This document shows positions 4,001 through 56,559 of a stretch of DNA of 64,000 nt, one piece after another. The translations under genes were made by a program, and so were the position numbers. How positions within the stretch are numbered: the first letter of the stretch is position 1; the number at the start of each line of letters is the position of its first letter. The notes under the pieces were generated by a model. The model saw only the letters and a program-made list of their open reading frames with translations. It was not told where the DNA came from and ran no database searches. Source of the DNA: Phlegmacium glaucopus. Lineage: Eukaryota > Basidiomycota > Agaricomycetes > Agaricales > Cortinariaceae. The stretch spans positions 1 through 64,000 of the forward strand of contig MU130710.1 in the NCBI GenBank assembly GCA_015039465.1, in the 5' to 3' direction.

Positions 4001-6151
4001 TCAAGTATACTTGCGCAACAAACTACGGAGCTCCTTTCTAGCAATGCCGTCTTCTTCCCATGCTTTCGCGAACTTCACTTTGAATCCCTCAGCATTCCTC
4101 CTCAGTTCCTGCCCTTTCTCACCACGACATAGATCAAGGGTTTGTCGTATTTCGATACCCACTGCTTCGCGCGTCCCCTTGGGGACAATTCCGTTCCTGT
4201 GGATAACCTTGAGACCCTCTCCGCTCCTGACTTGGAAGAGTTCGAAAGCAACGTTGAGATTTTCTGTGAGGTGTGCAGCAGCAGCCGGTTGATCTGCGTC
4301 ACAGGGCCAGCAAATTCTGACATAAGAAAGGTAAATGCCAGGTTGAGTTGTAAAATTATTGGAAGGCCCTTACAAAGGGATACCACTCCCAAGAGATTCA
4401 GTGATGCTATTAAAACCACCGTGAGTAACGAACCATCCGGTTGCCTGGGGAAGGATTTGTATTCTGAGTATTGAGAGGCCAGAACAAGTAAAGAAAAAGA
4501 AATACCGGGTGATTCAAGAGATATTGCTGTGGAGACCAAGTAGTTAGCAATCCCAGACCCGATGCCTTGACTCTTTCTATCTGTTGCTCTGATATTTTGG
4601 CGAATGGGGATGCATGGGCAAGAATCTGATTAATTCAATGATGAGCAAGGGTCCGTAAACTATCTTTATAGAAAGCAGCTTGTCACGTACAAATGGTGTT
4701 TTCTTTTCAATGAGGGCTTCGATCAACTCGTCAACATATTCTGGAACCGTGGGCCAGAAGATGGTGCCAAAGGAGATCTGAGCAGAAATTAGTTGGGGAC
4801 TCATAGGTGGCCAGAAGGTGCAAGGATCTTACAAAGAATACCGAGCGTTTTCCATGCTCTACTAGCATTTTCTCAAGGAACGCCTCGACATCGCCGCTTG
4901 CCCCCTCTTCGCTGTTCTTACTCTCAATGCCGTAACCAAGGGGCAGAACGGGTCCAAGAACATGAACTTCCTTCTGCGTGTCGGCGAACCACTGTTTCAT
5001 TGCGTCCAAGGACGCACCGTCGTAGATGGAAGAGGTAGTCACGATTACCCCGTCGCATTCCTTGAAGAAACTGTGCGAAATTTAATAAGATACTATCAAC
5101 TGGCAGAATGTTTATCCTTACGTGTAGCCTCCTCTTACGATAGCGTGGACGGGTTTGTCAAATGGAAGCTAAACGTTCATATAATCGTTTGAGATAGGCC
5201 CTGTTTAGCTCAAACACCTCATACCTTTTGCGGGAAAAATTCGTGGTCGTACATTGCAGGAAGGCCAGTAACACGAATAAGTTTTCCTTCTGTACGCCTG
5301 AATATCTTTGGATATAAGACCAGTTAGTCCATTTTTGTAAATGTGATATAGAAATATTCACCTCTTCACCAATGTCGATGGATGCCACCCCAGCACGAGC
5401 AGCCTCTGCATCAATTTTTGCACCGATATCCCCTAGACCACCCATAGATTCCGGACCAAAAAGACGTAAGAGTGCCCCAGCGCCGGCTGCTACGCAAGCT
5501 ATTATGGGCACAGAACGACCAGTGACTGCTCTAGTAGCATACAATTGAGGAAGTGCAAAGAACTAGAAGTAAAAGACAGAGAGATGATCTATTAGTATCA
5601 CAGACGATCATACAAATTAGCAGACTTGCATCTAGGATGGCCAAAGAAGGCGCGGGAACGGCATCAAACGTTGTACCCGTTACGGAGCATGTAATCGGCT
5701 TGGCCTCATACAGAGTCTGGTACGCTGCAGGGTATGCATCTGCGAAGATTTTCACTGCATCGAACATTTCGGCGTCATTGGATGGGCACGGCGAGAGGAT
5801 CCTTTTTAAAAAAGTTCGAGGTTGAGTATAAAGTGTGTGATACATACAACTCTTGAGCATCTACCTAATGCGTTGGAGAGCCTTCGCAGTTTCCGAAGGC
5901 TCGTCGCGAAATTGACGTGATATCTCGGCTCGGGCTTTCTCGAGTAGGTGCGGAACAACGATGAAGGTCACTACACTGTTTTCCTGTTCACGGACGATGC
6001 GCGTCGCCAGAACACAGAAAGGTCGGATATGCCCTGTCGGATATGCCAAATGAGTGACCCTTGGATCAAAGGCGTACTAGAATTAATGATGGATCTTACC
6101 CCAAGCTGCGAAGGGCAAAAGCAGAAGATGAGAAATGTTCGTCGATGTCAT
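4001..6151 (-). CDS. UDP-glycosyltransferase (GT1 family)
   Basis: Predicted to transfer a sugar from a UDP-sugar to a small acceptor; the acceptor is unknown. The start is ATG 6149-6151 (MTSTNISHLLLLPFAAWGH), with a short first intron whose removal gives AAWGHIRPFCVLA, the usual N-terminal His region of these enzymes. Exons joined in frame give NDAEMFDAVKIFADAYPAAY, GIESKNSEEG, ISFGTIFWPTVPEYVDELI, TWSPQQYLLNHP and the C-terminal donor-binding motif ATGWFVTHGGFNSITESLGS, then LICWPCDADQPAAAAHL. The gene ends at TGA 4001-4003 after ELRSLLRKYT. About nine exons and about 500 residues are normal for the family. No breaks were seen, so it is likely functional. Confidence 0.88.
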
Positions 6152-10257: not shown

Positions 10258-13200
10258 CTAAGTAGACACTCCTCCTCGCATGGGATCGCGGCAGGTGATA
10301 CCCAAGAAAGTGCAAAGCCGAGTGAATTTGGCGGCGTCCAGTGGTTTCGTGAAGATATCAGCGATGTTATCCTTTGTGTTGATATAGGACAGGGTAATGT
10401 CACCTGACTGAATGTGTTCTCGCAGAAAGTGGTATTGGATGTCGAAGTGCTTGACCCTAGCATGGAAGGCTGGATCTTCAGACAGGGTAATGGCTGCGTT
10501 GTTATCGCATAGGATAGTGGTGGGGGAACTGGGTGGTAGCTGGATGCCGGACAATAAAGTTCGCAACCAAAGGGCTTCTTTTGCGGCCTCAAATGCTGCT
10601 GTATACTCTGCTTCACAGGTTGAGGTAGCAACAGTGCGTTGTCGTCGTGCCTGCCAACAGATTGGACCCGATCCTAATGTAAAACAATAACCACCGACGC
10701 TGCATCTGGTGTCTGGGCAGTTACCCCAGTCAGAGTCAGTGAAGCCAAGGAGTTTTATCTCATTGGTGCCCCCAAGGGTTAGTTGCATCGACCTAGTACC
10801 TTTTAGGTATTGTACTACCCATACAGCAGCGTTCCAATGGATGTACAAGTAGTTGTCGAGGAACTGAGACAACTGCTGTACAGCATAAGAGATGTCGGGG
10901 CGAGTTCCAACAGCTAGATAAATGAGGCAACCAACCAGGGAGCGGTAGGGAGTCTTTGCCAGTTGATCATTATCTAAAGGAGTCAGCAACGACTTATCTG
11001 GGCGACTGAGTTTTAGACCCGGGTCCATTGGTGTTGAAACCGGGTGGCTTTGGTTCTGACCGAACTGTTGTACGACTTTGTTGATAAGTGCCGTTTGGGA
11101 TAGGTGGATTGTTTTTGTTGTTCTGTCCCGTAGAATAGCTATACCAACACAGTATTTTGTGTCGCCAAGGTCTGATATCGTCCATAATGATTTCATTTGT
11201 GACTTGAAGTTCTCATTTTCAGATTGTGAGCTGGCTATTGAGAGAAAATCGTCAACATGGACAGCAGAGATTACTGTACCTGCCGATGTATTCCTGTAAT
11301 AGATGCATGATTCGCAAGATAAGCGGGTAAAGCCCCAAGTCATCATGGCGTCATTCATCATTTTATTCCATATCCTCCCACTTCGCTTCATCCCATACAA
11401 GCCTCGTTGTAGCATCCAAATGTACTCCTCCTTTCCGGTTTCTTCAAATCCAATGGGTTGCTCCATGTACTGGACCTCGTCATCGGGTAGTAAGCCGTAA
11501 AGAAAAGCTGTTTTCACATCGATTTGCTGGGCATCCCAGTCAAGTGTTGCCGCAAGGTGCAGAAGGATACGCCAAGATTCCATGCGTGCAGTTGGTGAGG
11601 TTGTGCTCGTATAATCTTTACCATAAATTTGTTCAAAACCTTTGAATACCAGACGTACTTTCCATCTAATAGGGAGACCGTCTGAGTTTCGTTTGAGCCT
11701 AAAAACAGGGTGGCCTTTTCAAATTTTTGTGGTGGAAGGTACCTGAGACTGATGGATGAGTTTGTATACTCCCATTTCTTTCAACGAAGCTAGTTCTTCA
11801 AGGTATCCTGCTTCCCACTGGGTACCATATGGGGACATTTTAGCTTCCTGCCAGGTTTTCGGCTCATCAAGATCAAAGTTGTCAAAATCTGCTTCAGGGA
11901 TTGTTGCTATGGCCGCTAATATTCGATCGGTCCTTTCTATTTCTGATTCATCAGGCGTGTCAAGCTTCAGATGGTCAAATACATCACATAGTTCTTTGAT
12001 CGCTTCATTCTCCCCCTGTAGTTCTTGTTCCGATTCATTTGATATAGAGTTATTTGAGTGAGTTGATTTGTTTTGGGTGAGCCTTTTGGCACTTTCTTTA
12101 GATTGTTGTATAGCGTTTTCAAGTCGGCTGGGACGTGTTATGCCAGTGGACGTATTGAGTTTCTTTTGTGCCAAGCGATAGGATCGTCTAGGTACGTCGG
12201 TGTTCAAATCAGCCACATGATTGTTCTGAGTATCATGATTGGTATCCACCGTCAGTGGTGTTTCAGGTGTATCGATGGATTCGTAATGGTCAGGTCTGTT
12301 TTTGTTTGATGGTCGAACTTCATCTTCTGATTGAATAGGGTCCTCATGATCAGGTGTACTTTCTGGTGTTGAGGTCGGAACAGGTAGTCCTGTAGGAATT
12401 GTCTGTATATGGCCTTCATGTGACTCAATAAATCGGACATGGTAGGAACTGACAACTTGTCTGGTGGAGCGATGGTAGCAGCGGTAGCTTTTGGCATTAA
12501 GGTCATAACCAATTAGTACACATTCAACGGAATGTTTGTAGATTTTTGGGTTGTTACAATTTAGTATTAGTGTGAAGACTTTGCATCCGATTTTGCGCAT
12601 GTAGGAATAGTCAGGTTTTCGGCCATGCCACTTCTCGTATGGGGTACTATCACCTAGAGAGTGGGTGATCGTCTTCGCATGTAGGTGTGATGCTGTTAGG
12701 TATAGTTCATCCCATAGGAAAGGGGGTAGGTTGGCATGGATTGGCATGGTGCGTGCCTTGCCCATCAGAGTCTGATGCATACGTTCTACCCGTCCAATGT
12801 GGGCTGAAGTGATGGTGCAGTGAACTCGTGTTGTGTCCCTCGCGATTCGATCCATTGCTTCATTTCTTCAGTTTTTAATTCACCGTTATCTGTTCTGTAT
12901 TTCCCTACTGATAGCCCTGTTTCTCTTTCTCTGGCAATCTCCCATGCTTTTAGATACTGAAAAGCTTCATCTTTTGATTTCAAAAGGATAGACCATGGAT
13001 AACATGAATAGTCATCAACAATATTCATAACATATTTGTTACCCGTTCGTGATTCCACTGCCATGGGCCCAGTTAAGTCCACCCATACTATTTCTAGCCT
13101 TTTAGTTGCTTTTCTTTCCTCCTTTCGTATTTTGGGAACTGGCGTCTTCATCTGTTTCCCAAGAATACATGAGTCACACTTTGGTGGTGTAGTAGTAAGG

Positions 13201-14933
13201 GAGATGGGCATACCGTCAATCATGCCCTTTCTTGCCATATTAGCAATGGCTTGAAAGTTTGCATGACCTAGACGACGATGCCATGTCTCGAGATTTGGGG
13301 AATGAGTGATCAAATAAGCGGCTTTGTTTGGTGGAGCATAGATGTTAAGCGCGTAGAGATTCTTTCCATGGACCAAGGATCCATACGCCATCGTCTTTCC
13401 AGATGTGCGATTGGTTATCCAACATGTGAGATGGTCGAAGTGAACTAGCACATTGGAATCTTTGGTGACTGATGACACTGAAATTAATTGTACGGTAGAG
13501 TTTGGTATGTATAGTGCATTCTTGAGCCATAGATACAAATTCTTTGCTACTGGTATCTTGATGTTCCCAATTCCAATTGCTTCGATGACGGAGCCACCTA
13601 TTCCTTTTACCTTATGGGAGAAAGGTCGAAGGTTGATGAAGTCACCTTTGACTGGGCTGATTGCCGAGCTTGCACCTGAGTCTAGAAAGAAGGGGTTGCT
13701 GATGGCAGAGTGAGTGAATGTGGATGCGGTTGTGGTGTCGACACTCTTTGTTGAGTAGTCGTTCCAGTTGATACTAACTTTGTATTCTTTGTCAGACTCA
13801 ATGTCATATTGCTCCTCCTGAATCGCTGCCATGAAACCGTGGTATTCAATATCATCAGCGGGGAGCTGCTCAGGTTCCATGGATGCGATTCTGGCAAATT
13901 CCCTGGCAGTAGGATGGGTCTCAGTTAAGGGAGTGAGCAATGAGGTATCGGTGTACATGAGGTAGGAACGTCCATCGGTCCCTCGAACAGATACCTGGAC
14001 ATGAGGAGAAGAGCTGGAAGCAGACGCAAGGGAAATATGGGGTTTGGACTCTTTGTCCCTTTGCCGGGCCTCCTTCAACTCCTCAATTGTCTTTCCGGCC
14101 ATCCCTCCATTCGGACGGATGCACCATGGGGCAGTATGTCCAGGGCATTTGCAGTTTGCGCAGATGACAGGGGCTTTGCCTTTTTGGGTAGCTTGGGCAG
14201 CTAAAGCGACCGTGATGTCGCCCTTTGGAGCCCGTTGTTTATCTCCCATCAGCATCTGATATTCCTGTTCTAGGAAGTCCACGAGATTATCAACAGTGTA
14301 AGGGGAAGAGATGGTGGAGGCACGGAGGTCTCTCTGGATAATGGCACGGGAGTGGTCAAGGCCAGCTCCAAGTGCTTGGAGAACGATGATGGATATGAAT
14401 GTTTCTTTGTTGATGCCACCTTGCATACGGAATGCCCGACGTAAGTCATCTCGTAGTTGTCGGACTTTCACCATCATCTGATCGTCATGGTCGATGCGAG
14501 TAGTGAGAGCGCTTTGGATCAGGTTCGCCTGCTTTATAGGTCCCTCCTCGAGATGGTAAGATTCCAATTTTTCCCAGGTCTCCTTAGCACTAGTGAATGT
14601 GGATATGAGGTCTCTCTCAGTGGGAGAAAGACTGGATCATAGGAAACCTTGGACAGATCGGTCATTGGACACCCAGTTGCGGTGTGCATTCGGCTGAAGA
14701 TCCAACGGGGGTGCTTTGGAGATGTCGTCAGTTAGGTGAGAGCCGAGACCAGCCATGTCGAGGAGATCCAAAATTTTGGAGCTCCACCTCTTCCAATTTC
14801 CCCCATCCTTGTCAAGTCGATCGCCGTTGAAGGTGAAAGATATAGTCTCTTTTGTCACGATGGGTTTGGAGGCGTCGGCAAGTGTAAGAGGGTTTGGAGG
14901 GGAAGAGGACTGGTTCTCAGGGGGAACGGTCAT
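10258..14933 (-). pseudogene. copia Gag-Pol polyprotein, interrupted
   Basis: The order on the minus strand is Gag (from MTVPPENQSSS at 14933), a CCHC knuckle CANCKCPGHTAPWC near 14140, protease with FFLDSGASS near 13680, GAG-pre-integrase ETWHRRLGHANF, integrase VDLTGPM and YRTDNGEL, reverse transcriptase DVKTAFLYG and VHVDDFL, and RNase H FTDSDW, ending at TAG 10258-10260. Breaks: TGA in gag at 14637-14639, an apparent 1-nt deletion in integrase near 12811-12814, and TGA before RT at 11719-11721. Both TGAs are in frame with the flanking coding parts and sit where Arg (CGA) is expected. The last frame, RT to the end, is intact. Confidence 0.93.
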
Positions 14934-48044: not shown

Positions 48045-51000
48045 ATGTCTACTTCATCGGAACCCCAACTCACTGCTGAGGAGATTCAGGATTTGCAAGC
48101 AAAGTTTACTCGATTCCGTGTCCTCGTGATCGGGCGAGCCAATGCAGGCAAGACGACAGTCCTGCGAAGACTCTGCGACAGTACAGGAGAACCTACAATC
48201 TTCAGTCCAGATGGCGAAAAGGTGAAGTATATGGTGAAAGTTCATATCAGACATTGACATCCATGCCCATGATCACACAGATCGAGTCGTCGGCCCTTAA
48301 TCCATCGGTGGGGGTAAGCGGCTCCTGTACCAGTATTGGGTTATGTTCAATTAATATCTTCACACCGCAGCGTGGAGAGCATGACATTAAGAATCAAATG
48401 ATATTTAAGAGCAACTCTGGTTTTATCTTTCACGATTCCCGTGGTTTTGAAGCCGGCAGCGCCCAGGAGTTGAAGTTGGTACAGGATTTCATTAAGGAGC
48501 GTTCTAAGGCAACACATGTGAAGGAACAGCTTCATGCAATCTGGTGTGTTAGTACTCGCTTATAGAGAACAACCCTTTTCACAGAGAGAACAATGTTTTT
48601 ATAGGTACTGCATTCCAACAAGTGATGATCGGCCGATCACTGCAGCAGAGAAGAAGTTTTTCAATGAATGTGGGACGGGGCTTGGTATGTGTAGTCTTCA
48701 ATATTTTTCCACAAAAGATGATGACTCTTTGAAGTACCAGTGATTGTCTTGTGGACCAAGACTGATGCTCTTGACGCGGATAAAATCATGCAACTCATAA
48801 AGGAAGGTAAAAGTAAGGCTGAGGCAATGCAACAAGGCCCCCAAAAGGCCTGGACTGATTTTGAACAGAATATTCCGGAATGGTTTGGAGAGTTTAAATA
48901 TCCACCCAAGGCATATGTTGTATTTCGAAGTAAGTGTTATACTTGTTATAACTATTTGGCTAATTATGTGGTGCAGACATGCATGAGCCTGGAGCTGATT
49001 GTAAAGACTTGATTGAAAAAACGGCAGCTGCACTCTCTAGTGAAGAACTACAACAGCTCCTTCTTTCAACACAGCAAAACAATGTTGAGTTGTGTGTTGC
49101 ATATGGAGTTAGAAGGTGAACCATCATTTTTTAAATTTACCACATTAACATCATTCCTAGAGGTGTAAATGAGACAGGGCCCATTCTGTTGAAATATTTC
49201 AAAGACAATCAAAAACATGCAGTGGATGTGATGGCAACTGTGCTGGGATATTTTCCACATATTGTAGTATGTATTTGGTCAGATCAAAATAAGCCATTGA
49301 CAACTGATTGAGTTGTGTAGAGTGTTACCTTGGGCATTTAGTGTTTAAAATTTGGTTTAATATATATTTTGACAGCGTGTATGTAGGAAAAGAGTCACCA
49401 TTATATCTGGCTGCCAGTTACCTGACTTGTTCTCCAACAGATTGTAGGTGCAAGACCAATATGATCCTTAACTCTGGCTTACTCTTTTGACAGGTAGTAA
49501 GTACAAGACCATTTTAATCTGCCTTGACTCTGGCTTACTCTTTTGACAGTGGGTAAGTGCAAGATCATCTTGATCTGCCTTGATCTGCCTTACTCTTTTG
49601 GCAGTTGGTAAGTACAGGCACATGTTGATCTGCCTTGCCTCAACCCTACTCTTTTGGCAGTATGTAAGTGCAAAACCATCTTAATCTGCATGGACCCTGG
49701 CTTATTCTGTTGACAGAAGGTAAGTGCAAGACAGTGTTGATCTGCCTTGATTTACCTTACTCTTTGGACAGGGTGTAAGTGCAAGACAACCTTGATCTGC
49801 CTTGACTCTAGCTTACTCTTTTGACAGATGGTAAGTGCAAGACCATGTGGATCTGCCTTGACTCAAGCTTACTCTTTTGACAGTTGGTAAGTGCAAGAGC
49901 TTCTTTATCTGCCTTGACTTTTACTTTAATCTTTTGACAGGAGGTAGGTGTAAGACCATCTTGATCTGCCTTACTCTAGCTTACTCTTCTGACAGGAGGT
50001 AAGTGCAAGGCCATCTTTATCTGCCTTGACTCTAGCTTACACTTTTGACAGGTGGTAAGTCCACAACCATCCTTGGCCTGCCTTAACTGTAGCTTATTCT
50101 TTGACAGAGAGTAAGTGCAAGACCATCTTATCTGCCTTGACTGTAACTTACTCTGTTCACAGAGAGTAAGTAGAAGACCATCTTGATCTTCTCTGACTCT
50201 AGCTTACCCTTTTGACAGTTGGTAAGTCCAAGACCATCTTGGTCTGCTTTGACTTTAGCTTGCTTCTTTGACAGAGAGTAAGTGGAGGATCATCTTGATC
50301 TGCCTTGACTCTGGCTTACTCTTTTGAAAGACAGTAAGTGAAAAAACAATCTTGAGCTGCCTTGACTATCACTTACTCTGTTGGCAGGAGGTAAGTGCAA
50401 GACAATCTTCATCTGCCTTGGCTCTAACTTGCTCTTTGACAGTTGGTAAGTGCAAAACCATCTTGATCTACCCTTGACTGTAGCATACTTTTGACAGAGA
50501 GTAAGTGCAAGACCACTTTTATCTGCCTTGACTGTAGCATACTCTGTTGACAGGAGGTAAGTGCATAATCATCTTAATCTGTCCTGACTCCAGCTTACTC
50601 TTGTGATAGAATGTAAGTGAAGGACAATTTTGATCTGCCTTGGCTCTAGCTTCCTCTTTTGGCAGAAGGTAATATAAAACCATCTTGATCTACCCTGACT
50701 CTAGCTTACTCTTTTGACAGGAGGTAAGTGCAAGACCACTTGATCTGCCTTGACTATAGCTTACCCTGTTGACAGGCTGTAAGTGGAAGACTACCTTGAT
50801 CTACCTTGACTCTAGCTTACTCTTTTGTCAGTTTGTAAGTGCAAGGGCATCTTTACCTGCCTTGACTCTGGCTTAGTTTTTTCACAGGGTGTAAGTGCAA
50901 GACAACTTTGATCTGCCTTGACTCTAGCTCACACTTTGGACAGAGAGTAAGTGAAGACTATCTTAATCTGCCTTGACTTTAGCTTACTATTTTGGCAGTG

Positions 51001-54000
51001 GGTAAGTGCAAGACCATCTACATGTACTTTGAGTCTAGCTTACTCTTGTGACAGGGTGTAAGTGCAAGACCATCTTGATCTGCCTTGACTCTAGCTTACT
51101 ATTAAGACAGGATGTAAGTGAAAGACCATGTTGCCTTGGCCTTAGCTTACACTCTTTGACAGCATGTATGTGAAAGACAGTGTTCATCTGCTTTGACTCT
51201 AGCTTACTCTTTTGACAGTTGGTAAGCACAAGATCACCTTGATCTCCCTTGACCCTACCTAACTCTTTTGACAGGAGGTAAGTGCATGACCATCTTGATC
51301 TGCCTTGACTCTACCCTACCCTGTTGACAGTCTGTAAGTGGGAGACCATCCTTGATCTACCTTGACTATAAATTACTCATTTGACAGAGAGTAAGTTTAA
51401 GACCATCTTGATCTGATCTTGATCTGCCTTGACTATGGCTTACTCCTTTGATAGTTGGTAAGTGGAGGACCATCTTATCTGCCTTAACTCTAGCTTACAT
51501 TTTTGACAGTGGGTAAGTCCAATACCATCTGGATCTGTCTTGGCCTTAGTTTACTCTTTGGACAGGAGGTAAGTGCAAGAGCATCCTAATCTGTATTGGC
51601 TCTAGCTTACTCTTGTGACAGCTTGTAAGTGCAAAACCATCTCAATCTGTGTTTATCCTAGCTTATTCTGTTCACAGGATGTAAGTGCAAGACCATCCCA
51701 ATCTGCATCAGCTCTAGCTTACCCTTTTGATAGGAAGTAAGTGAAAGACAATGTTCATCTGCCTTGACTCTAGCTTACTCTGTTGACAGCATGTAAATGC
51801 ATGACCATTTTGATTCATCTTTACTCTAGCTTACTCTTTTGACAGATGGTCAGTGCAAGGACATCTTTATCTGCCTTGACTCTACCTTACCTTTCTGACA
51901 GTTTGTAAGTCCAAGAATATGTTGATCTGCTTTGACTCTAGCTTACTCTTATGACAGAGAGTAAGTGCTAGACCATCATGATCTGCATTGACTCTAGCTT
52001 ACTCTTTTGACAGGATGTAAGTGCAAGAGCATCTTGATCTTCCTTGAATCTACCTTACTCTTTTGACAGGATGTATGTGCAAGATCACCCTGATCTGCCT
52101 TGACTCTACCTTACTCTTTTGACAGGCAGTAAGTGCAAGACCATCTGATCTGCCTTGACTCTACCTTACTCTTTTGACAGTTGGTAAGTTCAAGATAACA
52201 TTACCATGCCTTGATTCTGTAGCTTACTCTTTTGACAGAATGCAAGTGCAAGACCATTTGATTTGCTCTGACTCTGGCTTACTCTTTTAACAGAGTGTAA
52301 GTGCAAGAGCATCTTAATTTTCCTTGCCTCTAGCTTACTCTTTTGACAGTTGGTAAGTCCAAAACAATCCTGACCTGCCTTGACTGTAGCTTACCTTTTC
52401 AACAGAATGTCAGTGCAAGACAATCTCAGTCTACCTTGGCTCTTGCTTATTCTTTTCACAGTGGGTAAGCACAAGATCATCTTGATATGCCTTGACTCCA
52501 GCTTAGTCTTTTGATAGGTTGTAAGTGAAGATCATCTTGATCTGCTTTGGCTCTAGTTTACTCTTTCAACAGTGGGTAGGTGCAAGATCATTCTGATCTG
52601 CCATGCCTCTAGCTTACTCTTTTGACAGGTCGTAAGTGCAAGACCATCTGATCTGCCTTGACTCCTACTTACCCTATTTACAGGCAGTAAGTGGAAGACC
52701 ATCTTGATCTATCTTGACTCTAACTTACTCATTTGACAGAGAGTAAGTCTAAGACCATCTTCATCTGCCTTGACTATAGCTTACTCTTTTGACAGGTAGT
52801 AAGTGAAAGACCATCTTTATCTGCCTTCACCTTGGCTAACAATTTTACAGATAGTAAGTGCATGACCATCTTGATCTGCTTTGGCTCTAATTTACTCTTT
52901 TGATAGTGGGTAAGTCCAAAATCATCTGGATCTGCCTTTGCCTCTTCTTACTCTTTTGATAGGATGTAAGTCTATGACTGTCTTGATCTTCCTTGACTCT
53001 AGCTTACTTTTTTGAAAGATGGTAAGTGCAAGGCTATCTGTATCTGCCTTGACTCTAGCTTACTCTTTTGACAGAAAGTAAGTGCAAGACAATCTTAATC
53101 TACCTAGGCTCTAGCTTACTCTTGTGACAGTTTGTAAGTGCAGGATCATCTTAATCTTCCTTGGCTCTAGCTTACTTTTTTCACAGAATGTAAGTTTGAG
53201 ACCATCTTGATCTGTGTTGACTCTGGCATACTCTTTTACAGAAAGTAAAACAAAACATCTTGATCTGTGTTGACTCTAGCTTACTCTTTTACAGAAAGTA
53301 ATGCAAACCATCTTGATTTGTCTTGACTCTAGCTTACTCTTTTGACAGGAGGTAAGTGCAAGACCATCTTGATCTCTGCCTTGCCTCTAGCTTACTCTTT
53401 TACCAGAAGGTAAGCACAAACCATCTTGATCTGCCTTGAGCTAGCTTACTCTTTTAACAGAAGGTGAGTGGAAATCATCTTAGTCTGTCTTGACTTTAGC
53501 TTACTCTTTTGATAGATGGTGAGTGCAAGGCCATCTTGATCTGCCTTGACTCCAGCTTACTCTTTTGACAGTTGGTAAGTACAAGATCATCTAGATCTGT
53601 CTTGGCTCCAGCTTACTCCTTTGACAGATGGTAAGTGAAAAATCCATTGTGATCTGCCTTGGCTCTATCTTACCCTTTTGACAGAATGTAAGTGCAGACT
53701 ATCTTGATCTGCCTTGACTTTAGCTCACTCTTTTGATAGGATGTAAGTGCAAGATCATCCTGATCTGCCTTTACTCTAGCCCACTCTTTTGACAGAGAGT
53801 AAGTCCAAGACTATGTTGATCCCCTTTGACTTTAGCTTACTCTTTTGACAGGATGTAAGTGCAAGATCATCTTGATCTGCCTTCAACTGTAGCTTACTAT
53901 TTTGACAGGATGTAAGTGCAAGAAAATTCTAAGCTGCTTTGACCTACCTTACTCTTTTGACAGTTGGCAAGTATAGGAGCATCTTGATCTGCCTTGACTC

Positions 54001-55677
54001 TAACTTACACTTTTGACAGATGGTAAGTGAAAGACAATCTTGAGCTGCCTTGACTATAGCTTACTCTGCTGACAGAGAGTAAGTATAAGACTATCTTGCC
54101 TTGGTCCTACCTTACTCTTTTGACAGGTGGTAAGTGGAAGACTGTCTTGATCTGCCTTGGCTCCAGCTTACTCTTTTGACAGCTGGTAAGTACAACCCCA
54201 TGTTGTTCTGCCTTGGCTTTAGCTTATGCCTTTGACAGAATGTAAGCACAAGACCATCTTGATCTGCCTGACTCTAGCTTACCTTTTTACAGAAAGTAAG
54301 TGCAAGACCATCTTGATCTGTGTTGGCTCTTGTTTACTCTTTTCACAGGAGGTAAGTGCAAGACCATCATTGATCTGCCTTGACTTTAGTTCACTTTATT
54401 GACAGGAGGCAGTAAGTGCAACACCATCTTGATCTGCTGTGACTCTAGCTTACTTTATTCACAGTTTGTAAGTGCAAATGCATCTTGATCTGCCTTGGCT
54501 CTAGCTTACTCTTTTGACAGAATGTAAGTGCAAGACCATCTTGATCTTCCTTGACTCTACCTTACTCTTTTGACAGTATGTATGTGCAAGATCATCCTGA
54601 TCTGCCTTGACACTAGCTTATCCTTTTGACAGACTGTAAGTGCATGAGCATCCTGATCTGCCTTGACCCTAGCCTACTCTTTTAACAGACTGTAAGTGCA
54701 AAGGCACCTTAATTTTCCTTGCCATTAGCTTACTCTTTTGACAGAATGTAAGTTCAAGATCATCTTGACCTGCCTTGACTCTAACTTACTCTTTTGATAG
54801 GAGGTAAGTGCAAGATAGCTATAATTATCAATGACCACTCTTTTACTGATGTTACAATGTCTTTGAACAGTGTGTAAGTGTACTGAATATCATTATTGTT
54901 GCTAATCTCATTGGCCTATTCTTTGGGCAGCATGTATGTTGAATATGTTACTTTTTCTACCATTTACTCCATGACATACATTTGTCAACAGAATGTATGT
55001 GCAAACACTTTGTGATCTGCTTTTTTCTCTGCTTACTTATGGAATATTATTACTTACAGACGGTAAGTATTACAATTACTCTTAAAATTGTTTTTTTATT
55101 GTCAGTAATAACATTTGGTGATTATTTTTACATCATTTCTATTTCTATACTCACTTTTTCTTATTCAGTTTTCATAAATTCCAATGTACAGCATTCCCTC
55201 TCCAAAATCATGTCATCCATTGTGAGTATTTGCTCTTTAGAAATACAAAGCTAATAAATTTCATTTTTCAAGCTTTCTGGCCTATCTCCCAACATTAACT
55301 CAAAAGAAACTACATACTGTGCAATTGGCATGCATCTGATCCAACTGTATTTTCCATACTCTCCATGTTAACTTTTCCTATTAGTTACAGCCATTCTTGG
55401 CCACCTGTCTTTCTTTCTTTACAAGGAATCACCAAGTACAGCTGACTCTTTGGAAAGAGCTGTCCAAATTTACCAGCAATCACCTTGTGACACCTCTGTC
55501 AAGCAAGCAGTCAACAATTATTTTGAAAATCTTTCCAAAGGCTCTCATGTCAATCATAAATTGTTGGTTCAAGAGGCTGTACAGATTGCAATGAATAATC
55601 TCATATGTATGGATCTTTTAATTCACTTCTTTTTATTTGTTGACAAGTACTAATTGGGAACTATAGCAAGGAAATAA
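48045..55677 (+). CDS. P-loop GTPase gene with about 103 single-codon microexons
   Basis: Seven conventional exons (48045-49266) code a G-domain protein of a family common in mushrooms: P-loop GRANAGKTT near residue 30, HDSRGFEAG (G3, DxxG) and VIVLWTKTDALD (G4, TKxD), then SEELQQLLLSTQQNNVELCV and MATVLGYFPHIV. The last conventional codon ends in phase 0 at 49266. From 49267 to 55062, intron-like units alternate with 3-nt exons (first AGT 49321-49323, CGT 49376-49378, ATT 49441-49443; last ACG 55060-55062). One exon, GAGGCA at 54406-54411, is 6 nt. Four conventional exons follow in the same frame: 55192-55221 (HSLSKIMSSI), 55273-55318, 55391-55606 (ADSLERAVQIYQQSPCD) and 55667-55677, stop TAA 55675-55677. 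Predicted length is about 520 residues. Acceptor choice at 55192 is inferred because an earlier AG gives a stop. Confidence 0.72.
49267..55062 (+). repeat. Tandem array of intron-like units spaced by 3 nt
   Basis: The unit is about 56 nt: a donor GTAAGTGCAAGACC, a middle like ATCTTGATCTGCCTTGAC, a branch-like CTAGCTTAC, and the acceptor TCTTTTGACAG, then 3 variable nt before the next donor. More than 100 units were traced. Units in the centre are alike; the first three and last four are clearly diverged. Two units use GC donors (52242, 53967), two use AAG acceptors, and several use TAG. The 3-nt positions vary freely while intron sequence is conserved. Confidence 0.93.
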
Positions 55678-56559
55678 GCCAATACTCAACTCAATTCATT
55701 ACACCTCTCTATGTGAAGAACAAAAAAAAAGAAAAACAATCATGTGGGCAGTGGAGAAGAGCTCAGAATGGAATCATGGATTACTGCTGGATATCTTTGC
55801 TTGTAATTGTAATTTGTGGAATGAATGATAGTGAAATCTCCATTGAATTTGTGTAAATACTCTTTTTTAGATGAACATTGGGGAAGTGTAAGTTAGTTCA
55901 AGGTGCTGGTAATAATTATGGATTCAGTTACCATAATTGAAGTTTTTTTTTGATCGTAATTTTCATTGAGATGGACAAGATGGAGCCTTGATGGAGCCCT
56001 ACAATACTTTTTGTATATCAATCCCCTACTTTATTTAAATATCTTGGTTGAGCCAAAAAATCAGCATAACTAAATACTAATGTTAGAAGGACTTGTATAT
56101 GCCATGCAGAGCAATGGCCCACACCTGCAAATTGCAAGAGAAAATGATGGATGTTTTTAGCGAGGTTATAAATCCCTTCCCTCACTATTGAGTATTGATC
56201 ACAGCGTAAAATGAGTACAATGACTTTATATTTCAGTATATTGTCCTTGTTATGTATACCTATAATTATTATCCGGTCACTATCATAACATTGAGGGTCG
56301 GAAATCAAGCATGAGTCGCATTTAAATATGGGCACAAGGTATCTAGTAGGCTTTATATATTGTTAAAAATGAGCCACGAATATATAGTAAAGCCCGTAGA
56401 TTGTGATTGATACCTAATGCCAATAGTACATGCCTGACTACAAGCATTTGTCGAGTACAGTCGTTGGGGGGCCCAAAATCAAGGCGTTCTTGTGTTCTGT
56501 CTGTCTGCCTGTCGTTAAAACGGCGTTGGAAAGTGGATAAATCCGAATCACGACGGTCG
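55678..56559. other. A/T-rich intergenic region between two gene 3' ends
   Basis: No recognisable gene. Frames at 56018-56335 (minus) and 56407-56661 (plus, overlapping the next gene) are not supported. Confidence 0.55.

Follow-up and report, generated by a model that had tools for sequence, protein, structure and literature searches.

According to excerpts of the respective reports, the micro-exon genes (MEGs) of schistosomes carry tiny symmetrical exons, giving protein variants via alternative splicing, and have fast-evolving products (PMC4350168), and the bicycle genes and megacycle of aphids form a fast-evolving family with many small internal exons, megacycle having more than 100 microexons and about 2000 residues (PMC9168663). 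Plants also possess microexons, including the 1-nt exons of APC11 and VPS55, where exons from one base up to a few codons in size are spliced in and overlooked by annotation (PMC8831610), and both introners and the introner-like elements of fungi are families of near-identical short introns present at many sites (PMC4457414, PMC3879977). The present work regards a 64,000-nt stretch of DNA from the basidiomycete Phlegmacium glaucopus (assembly GCA_015039465.1, contig MU130710.1, positions 1 to 64,000 of the forward strand), hereafter the window, in which a predicted GTPase gene holds an array of about a hundred consecutive introns separated by exons of, with one exception, a single codon.

Compared to those systems, the array has both likenesses and differences. 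Similar to the schistosome MEGs, it is a run of very small frame-keeping exons; however, in the MEGs these exons make up most of the coding region and the products are found in secretions, whereas here there is one codon in each, around a hundred follow one another, the genes belong to a fungal GTPase family, and the array accounts for 103 of 521 codons, leaving the majority of the coding region outside tiny exons. In the aphid family nearly all internal exons start in phase 2, unlike the phase 0 and single residue per exon of the window gene, and the plant microexons are single or two adjacent and conserved, in contrast to long hypervariable arrays. As with introner-like elements, there are many copies of nearly one intron, putatively spliced, but the copies stand at every codon of one segment and in one gene family.

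No described case of consecutive one-codon exons was found by searches of an open-licence library, outside of which most subscription journals and preprints lie, the nearest being the microexons of schistosomes, aphids and plants. Consequently, the one-codon-exon architecture is rated as new in kind, its splicing in P. glaucopus being predicted; the original prediction likewise named no described gene with a run on this scale. If the codons are spliced in, the window gene would have about 100 consecutive one-codon exons and the genome more than 1500, and spliceosomes would manage neighbouring introns three bases apart at scale. The system would also offer a natural test bed for minimum exon size, intron definition and intron origin, the last because introns and codons have uncoupled histories in these arrays, and it exposes a hypervariable protein family whose members are cut in two by the current P. 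glaucopus gene models.

The array of the window gene

The array was delimited by a splice-chain parser that gives no bonus for 3-nt exons and in which an intron must start with GT or GC and end with AG. Between 49267 and 55059, it returned 102 introns of 48-109 nt (86 of them of 52-54 nt), 100 starting with GT and two with GC, which, with the triplet 55060-55062, delimit 102 small exons (Table 1). Of these, 101 measure 3 nt and the remaining one 6 nt, which makes 309 nt in total and 103 codons. None of the codons is a stop, compared to 7.1 stops expected from their own column composition; only two of 20,000 column permutations were free of stops. The run of more than 100 intron-like units spaced by 3 nt, and once by 6, was thus as originally predicted, while the predicted size of about 104 codons and 312 nt was close without being the exact figure.

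Other searches gave a related picture. Tandem Repeats Finder (TRF) reports a period of 56 with 95.8 copies at 49466-54815, and a local chain search over 49000-56000 gave three chains of up to 45 introns; among their exons, 93 measure 3 nt and a single one has another length. Outside this region, no chain of at least three introns came up on either strand of the window, and the strand opposite the array and all five dinucleotide shuffles were likewise free of them. The array is confirmed as a real chain of splice signals with an open frame.

Regarding its surroundings, the in-frame assembly of the seven exons upstream ends at 49266 in phase 0, with the protein reading ...YFPHIV, and together with the array and the three exons behind it they form a single frame of 521 codons from 48045 to a stop at 55653, in accordance with the predicted phase and with a frame open to a stop. 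The true 3' end may be spliced otherwise, as some paralogue models finish with ...NNLLSEK.

The protein has the motifs GRANAGKTT, DSRG and TKTD, which we take to be the G1, G3 and G4 motifs of P-loop GTPases. Matches to the Pfam families Arf and MMR_HSR1 were just under the cut-offs, and those to NCBIfam were also under the curated cut-offs. Known GTPase structures could be aligned with the predicted model of a relative, P0019, those of IRG, septin and EngB/YsxC scoring within about one Z unit of one another; the Foldseek list is headed by a bacterial dynamin-like protein, by which no function is named.

A family of arrays and its coding potential

The array is not particular to this gene. In the P. 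glaucopus assembly (60.5 Mb, 259 contigs, with the window gene on C246), a piece of the array used as a query gave 224 matches, and a strict unit pattern matched 859 times (503 + 356) versus 15 for a reversed control. Parsing was applied to 35 loci, namely the window and 34 fetched ones (20, then 14 more), inside which 767 of the 859 pattern matches fall, the pattern requiring a 3-nt exon and being blind to lone copies. Among the first 20 loci, a GTPase exon of the window gene was matched in 19 (all but L012), and its last exon lies at most 1.2 kb behind the array in 18 (not L016 and L023). With seven further places among the matches listed, the genome has at least 42 arrays, so the original idea of some hundred one-codon exons in succession within a GTPase gene is upheld by the sequence tests as to its architecture, but has to be widened from a single gene to a family. 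Viral contigs had no exact match to the unit pattern.

As to the parsing, L012, which includes an N run, was given a free start, and no anchors were used for L053; a start anchor was lacking in L019, L022, L026, L052, L061 and L063, and an end anchor in L016, L023 and L051. In L016, near locus position 5512 on the + strand, the array gives way behind the last parsed unit to unrelated sequence, resembling an insertion.

Overall, the 35 loci have 1590 introns and 1555 internal exons, with lengths of 3 nt (1542), 9 nt (six), 6 nt (five), 24 nt (one) and 1 nt (one). Thus, 1553 of the 1555 are of 3, 6 or 9 nt, and the other two resemble parse artefacts: the 1-nt exon is, on inspection, an AGG exon whose acceptor was mis-set by two bases, and the 24-nt exon, in L013, occupies a place where CAT could serve as the first exon. 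Of the exons of 9 nt, three correspond to a codon with a changed donor followed by an in-frame donor six bases further. Among the 1542 triplets there are two stops, compared to 142.5 expected from column composition and a minimum of 112 over 2000 permutations; summed per locus over the loci that have at least 15 triplets, the expectation is 137.

Triplets ending in C are almost absent from the 35 loci (2 of 1454). A loss of CpG at the border between codon and GT is suspected, because C before GT makes a CpG and its change to T is synonymous.

The exons around the arrays were also compared by the ratio of nonsynonymous to synonymous substitution rates (dN/dS), with medians of 0.26 and 0.33 for two GTPase exons and 0.53 for the C-terminal exon (33, 35 and 33 of the 35 loci, respectively). 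For the C-terminal exon, the ratio is below 1 in 96% of pairs, and purifying selection acts on the exons that follow the array.

Since GT/GC-AG ends are required by the parser, fused units were looked for instead as a sign of splice-site loss. Only 21 of the 1590 parsed introns align as two fused units, of which 16 still have AG-NNN-GT/GC at the inner border, in a weaker context, and five are without an acceptor. Counting three changed donors, there are approximately eight broken ends in about 1600 units, well under 1%. The splice ends thus appear constrained, because 3-21% of copies are off consensus in the ordinary columns of the 53-nt introns and unconstrained ends would break far more often.

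Intron and codon histories

The introns and the codons between them seem to have distinct histories. Introns of 53 nt (934 of 1590) share one consensus, with columns conserved at 79-100%, mostly 79-92% for C/G columns and 90-97% for A/T columns, which gives them the appearance of neutral copies from a single master. Between them, the codons have no consensus and are near random. Identical introns in different loci (n = 330 pairs) share their codon in 7%, versus 5.8% at random, whereas identical introns in the same locus (n = 53) share it in 45%. When both flanking introns are within three differences, 66% of the codon bases differ across loci (n = 1652 codon pairs), compared to 48% within a locus. 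Consequently, the array peptide is hypervariable between paralogues except near its ends, where I or V comes second in 22 of 35 loci and M last in 18 of 35.

Growth chiefly through the copying of complete units, each an intron with its codon, is not favoured, as neighbouring introns are hardly more alike (8.24 differences) than those of different loci (8.94) and codons differ across loci. Some whole-unit duplication does occur, as seen in the codons shared by identical introns of the same locus. With regard to target-site duplication, as for introner-like elements, a codon equals its neighbour in 174 of 1507 cases (11.5%), versus 8.0% when shuffled (maximum of 300 shuffles, 10.0%), a weak excess counted on 3-nt exons only. 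Two histories would fit: the near-identical introns were inserted into codons already present, or new introns brought new codons with them.

In collinear stretches of five pairs of loci, introns differ by 6.5-10.5% and codon bases by 33-64%, many of the units being maybe not true orthologues; point hypermutation or positive selection of the codons is not shown by these pairs of doubtful orthology. The duplicates L013 and L028 are 94% alike over 3.9 kb including the array; within the latter, the difference amounts to 10% for introns but 42% for codon bases, and arrays may therefore be rebuilt fast.

Intron-free relatives and gene models

Two sequences of relatives, P0166 and P0167, on Joint Genome Institute (JGI) contigs of 1373 and 955 bases, have no introns, which suggests that they are spliced transcripts. 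They came from a search with three matches in all, the third being P0004, discussed below. In both, the GTPase part is followed by YFPHL or YFPNVW, then by 42 or 50 residues, by NLFSNAMSFS or ISLSKIMSPI, and by the C-terminal part, respectively; the inserts are rich in acidic and aromatic residues and run directly into the SISKIM-type exon. The same borders flank the one-codon exons of P. glaucopus. Moreover, the segment ends of P0166 (YV... and ...EHHDL) are similar to YVPLF of L057 and KEHHDR of L058. Some other relatives on short contigs (P0019, P0015, P0088, P0061 and P0005) have a low-complexity stretch directly behind WFPH, which is absent in many homologues.

The model P0004 gives evidence in both directions. 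It joins FPQIV directly to DSISKIM at the L027 array, and it also carries 20 residues of the L020 array, its insert matching the L020 peptide, to which the first K was added by hand, at 20 of 20 aligned residues in order (score 91, compared to 63 for the top of 5000 shuffles). Five codons of L020 are missing from it: three stand before weak donors (GTAACT, GC and GTAGGTGG) and two form a 6-nt exon. Its contig is taken as C237, as four other models there match C237 loci in long exact stretches; an exact locus for P0004 was sought in the genome and not found. Matching of exact stretches identified it as a chimeric model, with array residues of L020 and exons of L027, and it was dropped as a transcript proof.

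Models P0028, P0057, P0060 and P0107, from Laccaria, Suillus, Pisolithus and Mycena, finish soon after WFPH/FFPH-type motifs with residues resembling a read-through donor, and gene annotation may thus break at the same place outside this genus.

Proposed splicing of the array and alternative explanations

The closely spaced introns are most likely removed singly, the 101 exons of 3 nt and the one of 6 nt being joined into a 103-residue segment that connects the GTPase part to a conserved C-terminus. The GTPase-gene reading with one-codon exons is supported by the stop depletion, the frame-keeping lengths, the few broken ends, the purifying selection and the intron-free relatives. That the codons are spliced together and translated is most likely because of the stop depletion, the purifying selection downstream and the relatives with such a peptide. 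From the two intron-free relatives carrying a corresponding peptide, we infer that the codons are included in P. glaucopus mRNA.

At about 53 nt, the introns have a length suited to intron definition. Splicing would proceed in this manner over each of them, and every excision would add a codon to a lengthening upstream exon, so that the next donor would have a normal exon before it. The loss of a splice site would then drop or add codons and keep the frame, because every exon consists of whole codons in phase 0, leaving the length and content of the array free to change without destroying the gene. The segment could serve a large and diversified GTPase family as a rapidly evolving surface for recognition or interaction; as a guess, a role in recognition would suit a family that is large, changes fast and has a single variable segment. 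A tentative and rather doubtful extension is that the arrays act as a diversity machine, with a mobile intron family between successive codons of a surface segment in more than 40 GTPase genes, where codons could be gained, lost, swapped or skipped one at a time and in frame, resulting in a quickly rebuilt genomic repertoire and, by partial skipping, in very many isoforms of each gene, possibly for self/non-self or partner recognition.

Several observations weigh against one-codon splicing as proposed. The GT/GC-AG ends are fixed at 100% in the parser output by construction, and the family-wide parse overlooks four of the 102 small exons of the window, owing to weak donors. Acceptors are lost in L011, L024, L056, L060 and L062 and donors are changed in L023, L054 and L055; the two stop triplets lie in L013, opposite GAG in its close duplicate L028, and in L053, while one locus has a stop in exon 5 and another in the C-terminal exon. 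Regarding the transcripts, the status of P0166 and P0167 is deduced from their lack of introns, and the segment ends of P0167 are not close to P. glaucopus array ends. Gene models P0001 and P0003, as well as P0002 of a relative, read on into the first intron of the array and terminate in it (...VVCI, ...VVCNWSD and ...VVCV, respectively), P0001 matching L028 (C8) exactly over 65 and 60 residues; P0142 apparently retains the tail of the last array intron, and the direct junction of P0004 is added to these. Intron retention and array skipping may both occur. As for structure, the P0019 model is least certain in its variable stretch (residues 309-337 with a predicted local distance difference test (pLDDT) below 50, mean 83), the AlphaFold model of P0166 has a mean pLDDT of 50.9 and a low-confidence array segment and was not used, and helical periodicity at 100 degrees, from 32 of 35 array peptides (at least 20 residues), was not significant (sum Z/sqrt n of 1.27).

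Among the alternatives, the one that survives best, being nonetheless improbable, is that the array is mostly skipped as a whole, with the mRNA joining 49266 to 55192. This would be harmless, given phase 0 on both sides, and is the kind of junction seen in P0004; however, that model is a chimera of two loci, P0166 and P0167 contain the peptide, and unused codons would accumulate stops, of which there are two in 1542 triplets and not about 140.

Lower still is the probability that the protein ends just past exon 7, in the first intron, the array and the C-terminal exons being non-coding or a separate gene. P0001, P0003 and P0002 finish in this manner and 19 short P. glaucopus models span the C-terminal part alone, but the C-terminal exon has a dN/dS of 0.53, with nearly all pairs below 1, the arrays are nearly stop-free, P0166 and P0167 carry both halves in one frame, and the read-through tails are unlike between paralogues.

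Lastly, a non-coding minisatellite of 56-nt units within a single long intron, its splice-like motifs being owed to descent only, has next to no probability despite the single tandem repeat reported by TRF, as triplets lack stops, exon lengths are whole codons and splice ends are far less variable than ordinary columns; with the shuffle and strand controls, the stop depletion and rarity of broken ends led to the rejection of a minisatellite or chance origin.

Coordinates and other features of the window

Table 1. Features of the predicted gene (window positions) and further arrays of the genome (contig:position).
Feature	Position	Strand	Basis or remark
GTPase part, seven conventional exons	48045..49266	+	in-frame assembly; 301 codons
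Upstream exons	48045-48221, 48281-48313, 48371-48543, 48605-48684, 48735-48929, 48977-49115, 49161-49266	+	
102-intron array with small exons	49267..55059	+	parser without exon-length preference; TRF; controls
First one-codon exon, CGT	49376..49378	+	
Sole 6-nt exon, GAGGCA, two codons	54406..54411	+	
Last one-codon exon, ACG	55060..55062	+	
103rd intron, after last small exon	55063-55191	+	
30-nt exon HSLSKIMSSI after array, phase 0	55192..55221	+	xSISKIMSPI-type exon present in 32/35 loci
Exon LSGLSPNINSKETTYCAI(V)	55273..55327	+	
Predicted GC-AG intron	55328-55384	+	after exon 55273..55327
Last coding exon as read	55385..55653	+	TAA at 55651-55653
Arrays known from matches alone	C220:5623, C128:361958, C237:497439, C237:587241, C237:610917, C65:4992, C62:707737		

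Scans of the window for Rfam families and tRNAs found nothing. Elsewhere in it, long gag-pol-like open frames on the minus strand at 10258-14636 have the appearance of a Ty1/copia-like retrotransposon, and a tandem repeat at 1556-2132 has six copies of a 97-base unit with 87% matches.

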